Assembly: GCF_000016425.1 (NCBI RefSeq)
Contig: NC_009380.1
Span: 1 to 64,000, forward strand
From: Salinispora tropica CNB-440
GTDB taxonomy: Bacteria; Actinomycetota; Actinomycetes; Mycobacteriales; Micromonosporaceae
Length of the DNA: 64,000 nucleotides
Direction: 5' to 3'
Part shown: positions 6,934 through 12,598 of the stretch, piece after piece
How the letters are laid out: every line of letters starts with the position of its first letter
Position numbering within the stretch: the first letter of the stretch is position 1
Notes under the pieces: generated by a model
Database searches by the model: none
Seen by the model: only the letters and a program-made list of their open reading frames with translations
Told to the model about the DNA's origin: nothing
Translations under genes and position numbers: made by a program

Positions 6934-7505
6934 ACGGCCCGGCGGGGTGCCACCGACTCGGCGTAGACCGCGAAGCCCCGCTCGGCGCAGCGGCGGTAGA
7001 ACGCGGCGAGTACGCTCAGCTCCGCGCAGGTGAAGGTCCACTGCGGCGGATCCCCGCTTTCGTCGCGGAGCCGGTCCAGCCGGCTGTCCAGCCAGCGCAG
7101 CTGCTGTTCGGCCAGGCGTCCGTCGCCGAGTAACGCGCGGAGCACCTCGCTGACGGTGTCGAAGGTGACCGCCTCCCCGACTGCTCGATGCCGGGCCACG
7201 AACCGCTCGACTCCGTCGGCGATCCACCCGCAGCCGTCCGGGTCGATCACCGGGTCCTCGTCTTCCGCCGAGTGATCTGTGGCGTAGAGCACATTCTCCA
7301 AGCCGAGGATCAGATCGACCAGTTCGGTGTACGCGGTCGCCCGGACCGTGCCGGTCTTGGCGATCAGTTCGGCGAGCGCGGCCGTCGGCGCGGAGATCTG
7401 CGGCATGTCGACGATCTCGCCGAAGTCCACGAACTCGGCCGGCGCGACCGGGTCGTAGAAGCGGCCGGTCCGCGGCCAGTTCACCACGACGTTATCCAGC
7501 CCCAT
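6924..7505 (-). CDS. Conserved hypothetical protein
   Basis: I do not recognise a named domain in this 193-residue acidic, soluble protein (start MGLDNVVVNWPRTGRFYDP). It has no membrane segment or signal peptide. It is rich in Glu/Asp and ends with a cysteine-containing stretch (FTCAELSVLAAFYRRCAERG). Coding quality is good and the frame is free of breaks. It is transcribed convergently to the DUF721 gene and overlaps its 3' end by 10 bp, so the two transcripts are antisense at their ends. A GAGGTGACACC ribosome site precedes the ATG on the minus strand. Confidence 0.75.
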   Translation of the reverse strand: MGLDNVVVNWPRTGRFYDPVAPAEFVDFGEIVDMPQISAPTAALAELIAKTGTVRATAYTELVDLILGLENVLYATDHSAEDEDPVIDPDGCGWIADGVERFVARHRAVGEAVTFDTVSEVLRALLGDGRLAEQQLRWLDSRLDRLRDESGDPPQWTFTCAELSVLAAFYRRCAERGFAVYAESVAPRRAVQP

Positions 7506-8000
7506 CTGGTGTCACCTCTCAAGCCATGTCCGTACGAACGGGTCGATCGTCCGGTTCCAGCCGGCAAAGATCAAGCCGGTGTTCATCGCGGCATGGGACA
7601 CACCGGACCTCGGGGTCGCCGCCGGCTGGTGCGAGCCTACGGCCGGCTCGGTGCGCGTGGGGGGAGTCGTGGACGGAGCAGTCGGCCGGCTATGAAGGTC
7701 TCAGCCGCCGCGGAAGGGGTGCCGAGTGGTGGTTCTGTCGTCGACGCCCAGTAGGATTGGCCGGAGACGAAGACCCGGTGCGGAGCGATGAAACCCGGGG
7801 CCGGCCCGGGCCCGAGATCATCGTCCCACATCAGGTCGAGCCGATCGCGATCCGCGGGCAACCGCGGCGGCCGGCGCGTTCGACCCCCAGCCCGGATGAC
7901 TCTCCGGTGCCGGTCCGCGCGCCCGACGTCGCGTCCTGTCCGCCGAACCCCGCGACCGGTCGTGCCAAATGGCGTGGCCGACGCGAGAAAGTGGCCGAGG
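7506..8000. other. Gene-free leader region of gyrB
   Basis: About 495 bp between the divergent hypothetical gene and gyrB. I see no convincing gene. It must hold the promoters for both. A TAGGAT hexamer at 7752-7757 resembles a -10 element and would give a gyrB leader of roughly 240 nt, but no matching -35 stands out. Confidence 0.5.
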
Positions 8001-9947
8001 GTGGCAGCGCAGGACAAGCAGGAGTACGGCGCCGAGTCGATCACCGTCCTCGAAGGGCTGGAGGCGGTCCGCAAGCGCCCCGGTATGTACATCGGGTCCA
8101 CCGGCGAACGCGGTCTGCACCACCTGGTGTGGGAGGTCGTGGACAACGCGGTGGATGAGGCGCTGGCCGGGCACTGCGACACCATTGACGTGGTGCTGCT
8201 CGCCGACGGCGGGGTTCGGGTCACTGATAACGGCCGTGGTTTCCCGGTCGACCCGCATCCGAAGCTCAAGAAGCCGGGCGTCGAGGTGGCACTGACCGTG
8301 CTGCACGCCGGCGGAAAGTTCGACGGCAAGGCGTACGCCGTCTCCGGTGGCCTGCACGGCGTCGGGGTGTCGGTCGTGAACGCCCTCTCCACCCGGATGG
8401 CCGTCGAGATCCAGAAGGACGGCTACGTCTGGCGGCAGTCGTACACGGACTCGAAGCCGACGCCGTTGGAGAAGGGTGAGTCGACCGACGCCACCGGCTC
8501 GGCGGTCTCCTTCTGGCCCGATCCCAGGGTCTTCGAGACGGTTGCCTTCGACTTCCAGACCATCTACCGCCGGCTCCAGGAGATGGCCTTCCTCAACCGC
8601 GGTCTCACCATCCACTTCCTCGACGAGCGAGTCGACGAGGGCGACGATGGCAAGATGCGGGAGGTCACCTTCTGCTACCAGGGTGGCATCGCCGACTTCG
8701 TCCGGCACCTCAACGCTTCGAAGACCTCGATTCACAAGTCGGTGGTCGAGTTCGGCACCGAGGAAGACGGCATGTCGGTCGAGATCGCCATGCAGTGGAA
8801 CGAGTCGTATGGCGAGTCGGTCTACACCTTCGCCAACAACATCAACACGCATGAGGGCGGCACCCACGAGGAAGGCTTCCGATCGGCGCTGACCAGTGTC
8901 ATCAACCGGTACGGTGCGGAGAAGCGGCTGCTCAAGAGTGACGAGAAGCTCTCGGGGGAGGATATCCGGGAGGGACTGGCGGCGATCATCTCGGTGAAGC
9001 TGACCAACCCGCAGTTCGAGGGGCAGACCAAGACCAAGCTGGGCAACACGCCGGTCAAGAGTTTCGTGCAGCGGGTCTGCAACGAGTGGCTGGTTGACTG
9101 GCTGGACCGTAACCCGGCCGAGGCGAAGGTCATCATCACCAAGGCATCCCAGGCGGCACGTGCCCGGGTCGCCGCCCAGCAGGCCCGTAAGTTGGCCCGC
9201 CGTAAGTCGCTGCTGGAGTCCGGCTCGATGCCGGGTAAGTTGGCCGACTGCCAGTCGACCGATCCCCGCGAGTGCGAGGTCTTCATCGTTGAGGGCGACT
9301 CGGCGGGCGGCTCCGCCAAGCAGGGACGCGACCCGCGGACGCAGGCGATCCTGCCGATCCGCGGCAAGATCCTCAATGTGGAGAAGGCGCGGATCGACCG
9401 GGTCCTGAAGAACAACGAGGTCCAGGCGCTGATCACCGCGCTCGGCACCGGCATCCACGACGACTTCGACATCGAGAAGCTGCGGTACCACAAGATTGTG
9501 TTGATGGCCGACGCGGATGTCGACGGTCAGCACATCCAGACGTTGTTGCTGACTCTGCTCTTCCGCTTCATGCGACCACTGGTCGAGTTGGGGCACGTCT
9601 ACCTGGCCGCCCCGCCGCTCTACAAGATCAAGTGGAATCGGAAGGGGGACGATGCGCAGTACGCTTACTCCGACCGAGAGCGGGATGGGTTGATCGCCCT
9701 GCGGCAGCAGAAGAAGCCCAACGCCAAGCCGGACGACATCCAGCGGTTCAAGGGGCTCGGCGAGATGAACTATCCCGAGCTTTGGGAGACCACGATGAAC
9801 CCGGCTACGCGTACCCTGCGGCAGGTCACGCTCGACGACGCGGCGACCGCGGACGAGCTGTTCAGCGTGCTGATGGGGGAGGATGTCGAGGCTCGTCGCT
9901 CGTTTATCCAGCGTAATGCCAAGGACGTGCGGTTCCTGGACATCTGA
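8001..9947 (+). CDS. gyrB: DNA gyrase subunit B
   Basis: ATPase subunit of gyrase, which introduces negative supercoils with GyrA. The 648-residue product has the GHKL ATPase features [12 protein letters not shown] near 50 and [15 protein letters not shown] near 115, then the transducer domain, and the TOPRIM domain with [14 protein letters not shown] near 431 and DADVDGQHI near 507. GTG at 8001 begins [13 protein letters not shown]; another in-frame GTG at 7974 is possible, and neither has a strong ribosome site, so the start is uncertain by nine codons. It is followed by gyrA after 131 bp. Confidence 0.96.
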
Positions 9948-9989
9948 GCCACTCGGGTCCGGCCGGCCCATCGTCGACGCGACCCTGGC

Positions 9990-10041
9990 GAATCCACAGG
10001 GTTATCCACAGCCAGGCCGGTTTCCACAGCGGTTATCCACA
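9990..10041. promoter_or_regulatory. DnaA-box cluster between gyrB and gyrA
   Basis: Two exact TTATCCACA boxes at 10002-10010 and 10033-10041, both on the plus strand, plus two degenerate TCCACA boxes at 9990-9998 and 10020-10028. The four elements share one orientation inside 52 bp and sit 38-89 bp upstream of the gyrA start. They look like the boxes in oriC. A role in controlling gyrA or in titrating DnaA is inferred. Confidence 0.75.
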
Positions 10042-10078
10042 GCACAAAAGCGACTCTGAGTCTGATAAGGGTTAACAA

Positions 10079-12598
10079 GTGACCGATACCCCCGAGTCCA
10101 CACCGAACGAGCCCGACGTCCCCGAGACCGCCGGCGCCGTCGTGGCGCACGACCGGATCGAGCCGGTCGGGCTCGAGGTGGAGATGCAGCGTTCCTACCT
10201 CGACTACGCCATGAGCGTGATCGTCGGGCGGGCGCTGCCGGACGTCCGGGACGGGCTGAAGCCGGTCCACCGCAAGATCCTCTACGCGATGTTCGACTCG
10301 GGGTACCGGCCCGACCGGGGGTACGTGAAGTGCTCTCGGGTGGTCGGCGATGTGATGGGCCAGTTCCATCCGCACGGCGACTCGGCGATCTACGACGCCC
10401 TGGTCCGGATGGCCCAGCCCTGGGCGCTGCGCTACCCGCTGGTGGATGGCAACGGCAACTTCGGGTCGCCGGGCAACGATCCGGCCGCGGCGATGCGGTA
10501 CACCGAGTGCAAGCTCGAACCGCTGGCGATGGAGATGCTGCGGGACATCGACGAGGACACCGTCGACCTGCAGGACAACTACGACGGGCGGGCCAAGGAG
10601 CCCACGATCCTGCCGTCCCGGATCCCCAACCTACTGGTCAACGGCTCCGAAGGCATCGCGGTCGGAATGGCCACCAAGATCCCACCGCACAACCTGCGGG
10701 AGATCGGCGCGGCGGTGCAGTGGTGCCTGGAGCACCCGGAGGCCGACGAGGCGAGCACTCTGGAAGCCCTTCTGGGGATCGTCAAGGGTCCGGACTTCCC
10801 GACCCACGGCCTGATCGTCGGCCGGGCGGGGATCCAGGACGCGTACCGCACCGGTCGCGGCTCGATCCGGATGCGCGCCGTGGTCGAGGTCGAGGAGGAC
10901 AAGCGGGGCCGGCCAGCGCTGGTGGTCAGCGAGCTGCCGTACCAGGTGAACCCCGACAACCTGGCCGAGCGGATCGCTGAGCTGATCAAGGAGGGGAAGC
11001 TCGCCGGAATCGCCGACATCCGGGACGAGTCCTCCGGCCGGACCGGCATGCGGCTGGTGCTGGTGCTCAAGCGCGACGCGGTCGCCAAGGTGGTGCTGAA
11101 CAACCTCTACAAGCACACCCAGCTTCAGGAGACCTTCGGCGCGAACATGCTGGCGCTGGTGGACGGCGTGCCGCGCACGCTCAACCTGGCCCAGTTCATC
11201 CGCTACTACGTCGCTCACCAGATCGAGGTGATCCGCCGGCGGACGGCGTTCCGGCTGCGTAAGGCCGAGGAACGGGCGCACATCCTGCGCGGTCTGGCCA
11301 AGGCGCTGGACGCCCTCGACGAGGTGATCGCGCTGATCCGGCGCTCGCCGACGGTGGATGACGCGCGGCAGGGTCTGATCCGGTTGCTGGAGATCGACGA
11401 GATCCAGGCCACCGCGATCCTGGACATGCAGCTGCGGCGGCTGGCCGCGCTGGAACGGCAGCGGATTCTCGACGACCTGGCGAAGCTCGAGCTGGAGATC
11501 GCCGACTTCAAGGACATTCTGGCGAAGCCGGAGCGGCAGCGGCGGATCGTCTCGGAGGAGCTGGGTGAGATCGTCGCGAAGTGGGGCGACGACCGGCGTA
11601 CCCAGATCATTCCGTTCGACGGCGAGGTCTCGATGGAGGACCTGATCGCCCGCGAGGACATCGTCGTCACCATTACCCGAACCGGGTACGCGAAGCGCAC
11701 CAAGGTGGACGCGTACCGCTCGCAGCGGCGGGGCGGTAAGGGGGTCAGCGGCGCCTCGCTGCGGCAGGACGACATCGTCAGCCATTTCTTCGTGTGCTCG
11801 ACGCACGACTGGATTTTGTTCTTCACCAACAAGGGTCGGGTGTACCGGGCCAAGGCGTATGAGCTCCCGGAAGCCAGTAGGGTGGCCAAGGGCCAACACG
11901 TGGCCAATCTGCTCGCCTTCCAACCAGACGAGCAGATCGCACAGATCATCGAGATTTCCGACTACCAGGTCGCCCCCTACCTGGTTCTGGCCACAAAGAA
12001 CGGAGTGGTAAAGAAGACGAGGCTCGAGGAGTTCGACTCCAACCGGTCCGGCGGCATCATCGCGATCAACCTGCGCGAGGACGACGAACTGGTCGGTGCC
12101 GCCCTGGTGGCGCCGGAGCAGGATCTCCTGCTGGTGTCGAAGAACGCCTTGGCGATCCGGTTCAACGCCACCGACGAGGCGCTGCGGCCGATGGGGCGGG
12201 CTACCTCGGGTGTGATCGGGATGCGGTTCAGCGAGGACGACGAGTTGCTCGCGATGGAGGTCGTCCGGCACGGCCTGGACGTCCTGGTGGCTACCAACGG
12301 CGGCTACGCGAAACGTACTCCGATTGAGGAATACCCGGTCCAGGGCCGGGGAGGTAAGGGCGTGCTGACTGCGAAGATCACCGAGCGGCGCGGTGGTCTG
12401 GTCGGTGCTGTGGTGATCGACCCGGACGACGAGCTCTTCGCTATCACCAGTAACGGTGGTGTCATTCGGACTCCGGTGAAGCCTGTACGCCGTACGCGCG
12501 ACCGGAACACAATGGGGGTCAAGCTGATGGACCTTCCGGATGGCGTAACCATCGTGGCGATTGCTCGCAATGCCGACGAGCCTGACGAACAGGACTAG
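10079..12598 (+). CDS. gyrA: DNA gyrase subunit A
   Basis: Breakage-reunion subunit of gyrase. The 839-residue product has the winged-helix domain with catalytic tyrosine in AMRYTE (Tyr141) and the quinolone-resistance region [15 protein letters not shown], where Ser102 aligns with E. coli Ser83; mycobacteria usually have Ala here. The C-terminal half carries the six beta-pinwheel blades, with the GyrA box QRRGGKG near 550. GTG at 10079 follows TAAGGG at 10065-10070. DnaA boxes lie just upstream. The DUF3566 gene follows after 4 bp and is likely co-transcribed. Confidence 0.97.

Follow-up and report, generated by a model that had tools for sequence, protein, structure and literature searches.

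Why do DnaA boxes lie between gyrB and gyrA in the marine bacterium Salinispora tropica CNB-440, and what might DnaA do there? The sequence-only reading of our window, the whole 64,000-nucleotide stretch analysed here, had described two exact and two degenerate boxes in a single orientation upstream of gyrA, 7 kb from oriC. Its counts and coordinates proved exact, with each degenerate box matching at 7/9 positions. The features on which the argument depends, all on the + strand, are the following.

463–2388, +: dnaA open reading frame, start unsettled, with a DnaA box-binding domain (Pfam PF08299, 2.6e-30)
7752–7757, +: TAGGAT, a -10 candidate for the gyrB(A) operon, from consensus only
9948–10078, +: gyrB–gyrA spacer of 131 bp that lacks a TANNNT -10
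9990–9998, +: degenerate DnaA box GAATCCACA (7/9), read from sequence as the upstream half of double box 1
10002–10010, +: exact DnaA box TTATCCACA, read from sequence as the downstream half of double box 1
10020–10028, +: degenerate DnaA box GTTTCCACA (7/9), read from sequence as the upstream half of double box 2
10033–10041, +: exact DnaA box TTATCCACA, read from sequence as the downstream half of double box 2
10050–10078, +: conserved leader ahead of the gyrA GTG, a short inverted repeat GACTCTGAGTC followed by a Shine–Dalgarno-like AAGGG
10079–12598, +: gyrA, 839 aa, GTG start (Pfam PF00521, PF03989)

Pfam confirmed the identities of both gyrB, whose stop codon ends at 9947, and gyrA. The cluster stops 37 bp short of the gyrA start and is near oriC (the dnaA–dnaN spacer, about 2.4–3.0 kb) yet outside it, as an origin-proximal titration cluster would be. 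In the spacer each exact box follows a weak one, separated from it by 3 bp in the first pair and by 4 bp in the second, and 31 bp, approximately three helical turns, lie from one exact box to the other. The arrangement is reminiscent of a tandem of two double DnaA boxes. The short inverted repeat GACTCTGAGTC, at 10050–10060, stands directly before the Shine–Dalgarno-like stretch of gyrA; judged by eye, some relatives keep it or vary it with partial compensation and others do not.

The boxes exceed what chance would supply. Matches with at most one mismatch number 15 in the window, most of them in or near oriC, against a mean of 2.38 and a maximum of 7 in 100 shuffles. The genome, a single contig of 5,183,331 bases, holds three exact TTATCCACA pairs with a gap of 10–40 bp in its 5.18 Mb and none of the reversed control pattern, whereas single TTRTCCACA boxes are less special, at 44 against 18 for the reversed pattern. 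At least two TTRTCCACA consensus boxes thus stand closer together than chance would place them, which is the mark of a DnaA-box cluster, and we consider it very likely that DnaA binds the boxes in this spacer.

The sequence-only reading had proposed looking for the boxes in related genomes, and would have been refuted by their absence from close relatives; that comparison found them kept, both across the genus and in a large share of the family. The exact TTATCCACA pair was present in 61/61 Salinispora genomes and its reversed control pattern in 0/61. This search admitted gaps of 8–38 bp, two genomes matching at a shorter gap as their middle box is also exact; direct inspection placed the pair between gyrB and gyrA in 44 of the 61 (37+2+5), the other 17 being assigned by sequence. 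In an alignment of 37 genus loci both exact boxes were invariant in all 18 of their columns (9/9 each), compared with 7/9 for the middle degenerate box and 5/9 for the first, at which the TCCACA core is nonetheless retained in 37/37 and 35/37 loci, respectively. Across the same 37 loci, 1 of the 42 columns of spacer upstream of the cluster was invariant, as were 22 of the 37 between the last box and the gyrA start and 29 of the first 60 of gyrA itself. The nearest named loci, from Salinispora vitiensis and S. mooreana, share 99% identity in the GyrA N-terminus, and the tree described below places them in one group with the window. Perfect double boxes (pairs of TTRTCCACA 2–4 bp apart) occur in varied places in 53/61 genus genomes. 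The coding region carries a variation of its own: GyrA of the window (10079–12598) has no insertion, while in 15/37 genus members the gyrA open frame extends to about 1260 aa and its match is interrupted at residue 142, the pattern expected of an intein, and several DnaB frames of the genus are also very long.

Beyond the genus, we sampled 150 Micromonosporaceae genomes and used 147, three without a gyrA match being excluded; in two of them the 130 bp preceding gyrA stood in for the spacer, and one spacer was empty. A forward TTRTCCACA was found in 91/147 spacers, against a mean of 0.12 under an order-1 Markov control, and a reverse box in one, a 91:1 ratio that does not represent 91 independent events given that forward orientation is partly inherited. 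At least two forward boxes were present in 68/147 spacers and a double box in 87/147, and 25 of the 42 genera sampled have at least one box in the spacer. The geometry recurs as well: of the 68 spacers, 60 have a 31-bp spacing between their last two exact boxes and three a 21-bp spacing, and the double boxes have gaps of 3 bp (63 cases) or 4 bp (52 cases) and never 2 bp. The distance from the last box to the gyrA start varies by genus, from -23 to -114. Together, these observations support a selected DnaA-box cluster, conserved across the sampled genus and much of the family.

Retention is nevertheless incomplete, with no forward box in 56/147 family genomes, including 3/7 from one genus (g56), two loci of which show visible box decay; the box-free spacers tend to be the shorter ones. 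Because these 56 genomes manage without a forward box, the site is dispensable, although conserved. The same absences are what could be said for a chance arrangement or a functionless relic, a reading we consider next to negligible against boxes whose exact copies are invariant over the 37 aligned loci and whose pair occurs in every genome of the genus. Among 80 named loci, 10 carry an exact box, every one of them from a Micromonosporaceae genus; the Virgisporangium locus, also of this family, has no exact box, and the 56 named Streptomyces loci have none either, 46 of these spacers being only 41–50 bp long. At the level of the order, an exact box was found in 3 of the 21 genomes that were used from a set of 24, two having given no match and one having been left out.

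A GyrB/GyrA tree places this patchy distribution in context. It comprises 110 hand-picked rows from which most near-duplicates were excluded, each labelled positive if it has at least one exact or two near boxes. The label is carried by 58/79 rows of one well-supported clade and 3/31 elsewhere, and it requires 15 changes compared with a shuffled mean of 36.5, so it is clustered; with that many changes required, the tree does not show a single gain. The site looks old in this clade, and repeated loss is the likeliest reading of the patchy presence of boxes within it.

If DnaA binds here, what would it act upon? The sequence-only reading had offered a DnaA-controlled gyrA promoter in the spacer, and an activated or repressed promoter of this kind could account for the placement of the last box 37 bp from the gyrA start and for the good conservation of those 37 bp. 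Consensus scans, which are not proof, point elsewhere. We found no sigma-70-like site in 9800–10200 and no TANNNT in the spacer of any of the 37 genus members, and the last 100 bp of gyrB are also free of TANNNT in 36/37, the exception having one at -216 and another at -151 relative to gyrA, inside gyrB in each case. Before gyrB, by contrast, a TA[AG]GAT (TARGAT) is found 239–249 bp ahead of the assumed and still unsettled gyrB start in 21/21 genus members examined. The proposed promoter is unsupported because the spacer is devoid of TANNNT while a -10-like sequence is conserved before gyrB. In the family, TANNNT follows the last box in 19/91 box-bearing spacers, a point in favour of a dedicated promoter, but its overall frequency in these spacers (27/91) falls below the approximately 57 expected from shuffles. 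Box-free spacers of at least 60 nt have TANNNT in just 3/24 cases, so its scarcity does not depend on the boxes. Also counting against a dedicated promoter, the conserved AAGGG before gyrA looks like a ribosome-binding site; an AAGG lies within 20 nt of the gyrA start in 68/91 box-bearing spacers.

Actinobacterial promoters are degenerate, and a consensus scan could miss a gyrA promoter; we found no Actinoplanes start-site literature covering gyrA. On balance, we judge a dedicated, DnaA-regulated promoter in the spacer improbable, and for the genus the simplest reading would be one gyrB–gyrA operon with the DnaA boxes inside it. Of the original interpretation, what stands is a selected and conserved DnaA-box cluster at gyrA, with titration as a candidate role; the DnaA-controlled promoter in the spacer is unsupported.

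A position within a probably transcribed stretch, followed by a short inverted repeat, would also suit a sequence that functions at the RNA level or is recognised by a protein that is not DnaA. We regard this as very improbable. The repeat is the DnaA box consensus, present also in the organism's own oriC and dnaA leader, and the predicted RNA fold gives z = -1.30, with 19/200 shuffles as low. An Rfam search of 7400–10400 at E ≤0.1 returned a single match, at 7772–7838, a sub-threshold miRNA scoring 30.5 against a gathering score of 100.

The distribution of boxes elsewhere in the genome bears on a further possibility, namely that the cluster serves origin-proximal titration or buffering: it would bind DnaA, be duplicated early after initiation and thereby lower free DnaA, with gyrA an incidental neighbour. 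Taking the contig as closed, 13/15 exact copies of TTATCCACA and 11/29 copies of TTGTCCACA are within about 100 kb of oriC, and they form several clusters. Apart from oriC and the dnaA leader, these are found ahead of dnaB, in the interval separating murJ from a kinase-like gene, close to parB and beside a prepilin-peptidase-like gene. It is because boxes cluster near oriC that titration stays alive as a rival. The murJ/kinase-like site (5165541–5165592 of the genome) is a second TTATCCACA pair, 43 bp from start to start with a partly conserved middle, and a similar pair occurs in 40/61 genus genomes, the flanking genes being those examined in the S. tropica genome. Two exact boxes lie upstream of dnaB, at 5141686–5141759. 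In loci from 30 of 31 genus genomes, this upstream region has a box in 22/30, 21 of them at -219 to -228, and none in 8/30; the gyrA site is thus kept more often in the genus than the dnaB box. Three exact boxes at 5176423–5176534, about 0.4 kb past the 3' end of parB, surround the palindrome TGTTTCACGTGAAACA, which we take to be parS-like. At 5086633–5086693, four forward boxes fall within 61 bp at the called start of the prepilin-peptidase-like gene.

Origin-proximal DnaA-box clusters outside oriC have reportedly been described in B. subtilis and Streptomyces (Okumura, 2012; Smulczyk-Krawczyszyn, 2006). The Salinispora cluster shares with them the presence of boxes outside oriC, whereas their neighbouring genes reportedly differ and the Salinispora cluster stays at gyrA. 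Among the TTATCCACA pairs visible to our search pattern, the gyrA pair alone is present in all 61 genomes, and titration requires neither a fixed orientation relative to gyrA nor the retention of boxes in so many genera, although inheritance could explain both. We keep titration as the main rival, though it is less likely than not.

The reading that we prefer is a DnaA site inside the gyrB–gyrA operon, most likely hindering transcription into gyrA, and we place its probability a little below even. We infer both a single gyrB–gyrA transcript and the hindrance of RNA polymerase upon it. In this model, gyrB and gyrA would be transcribed as an operon from a promoter upstream of gyrB, through a spacer that presents what appear to be two tandem double DnaA boxes. 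DnaA, most likely in its ATP form, would occupy the boxes cooperatively from the same side of the helix, and the bound protein would impede RNA polymerase as it moves from gyrB into gyrA, such that high free DnaA would lower gyrA output. Gyrase supply, and hence supercoiling at the origin, would then be coupled to the level of the initiator. Counting against this reading are the usual 4-bp gap of the second double box, the variable distance between the last box and the gyrA start, the family members that lack a forward box, and the TANNNT present in 27/91 box-bearing family spacers. A more specific version, in which a regulated DnaA roadblock in the gyrBA operon of Micromonosporaceae shifts the GyrA:GyrB ratio with initiator level, is a tentative suggestion that may well prove wrong.

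Comparison with characterised DnaA sites provides partial precedents for this arrangement. According to the accessible part of PMC11317965, E. coli DnaA favours double boxes 2–3 bp apart, one base added to a 3-bp gap strongly reduced binding, and at purH a 7/9 box is followed, 3 bp further on, by a perfect one. With the E. coli double boxes described there (purH, DARS1, nrdA, oriC), the gyrA spacer shares a weak box joined to a perfect TTATCCACA, a single orientation, the 3-bp gap of purH and a location near DNA-metabolism genes; it differs in having two tandem copies, the second mostly with a 4-bp gap. Under the strict E. coli rule (2–3 bp, same orientation), the first pair fits and the second, usually at 4 bp, does not. 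The same portion of PMC11317965 portrays E. coli DnaA as a roadblock for elongating polymerase and cites asnC and guaB as instances, which have in common with our site DnaA boxes in a probably transcribed stretch; the guaB site was unbound in the ChIP-seq of that study. The gyrA site differs from asnC and guaB in being a probable intra-operon spacer, at which a block is a prediction.

The sequence-only reading had also remarked that the gyrB–gyrA spacer was not familiar as a DnaA target, and we found no report of it among the papers listed by searches of a library in which few subscription journals are included. In the accessible part of PMC11317965, gyrA is not named among the 16 E. coli regions and the string 'gyr' is absent from the text. 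For M. tuberculosis and M. smegmatis, the mapped DnaA regions in the available part of PMC7738170 are oriC, rpmH–dnaA, the region upstream of dnaB, Rv0010c–Rv0011c and Rv3843c–RVnc0040. As in Salinispora, these are few sites in an actinobacterium, and the dnaB site has a Salinispora counterpart, but gyrA is not among the five. The box sequence differs as well: the accessible text of a review (PMC4285127) gives TTGTCCACA as the high-affinity box for both M. tuberculosis and S. coelicolor, whereas the exact gyrA boxes of S. tropica are TTATCCACA.

In the Salinispora group, gyrA joins dnaA and dnaB as replication genes carrying DnaA boxes. In B. subtilis, active gyrase reportedly reduces DnaA at oriC (Samadpour and Merrikh 2018, as cited in the accessible part of PMC10532879), and because of that report a feedback loop is conceivable in which this effect and a DnaA roadblock before gyrA, if it exists, would together connect supercoiling with initiation. 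How supercoiling and initiation are linked is an open question, and a DnaA site before gyrA would constitute the reverse arm of the B. subtilis gyrase effect. Such a site suggests that the replication-initiation machinery may directly tune the supply of gyrase.
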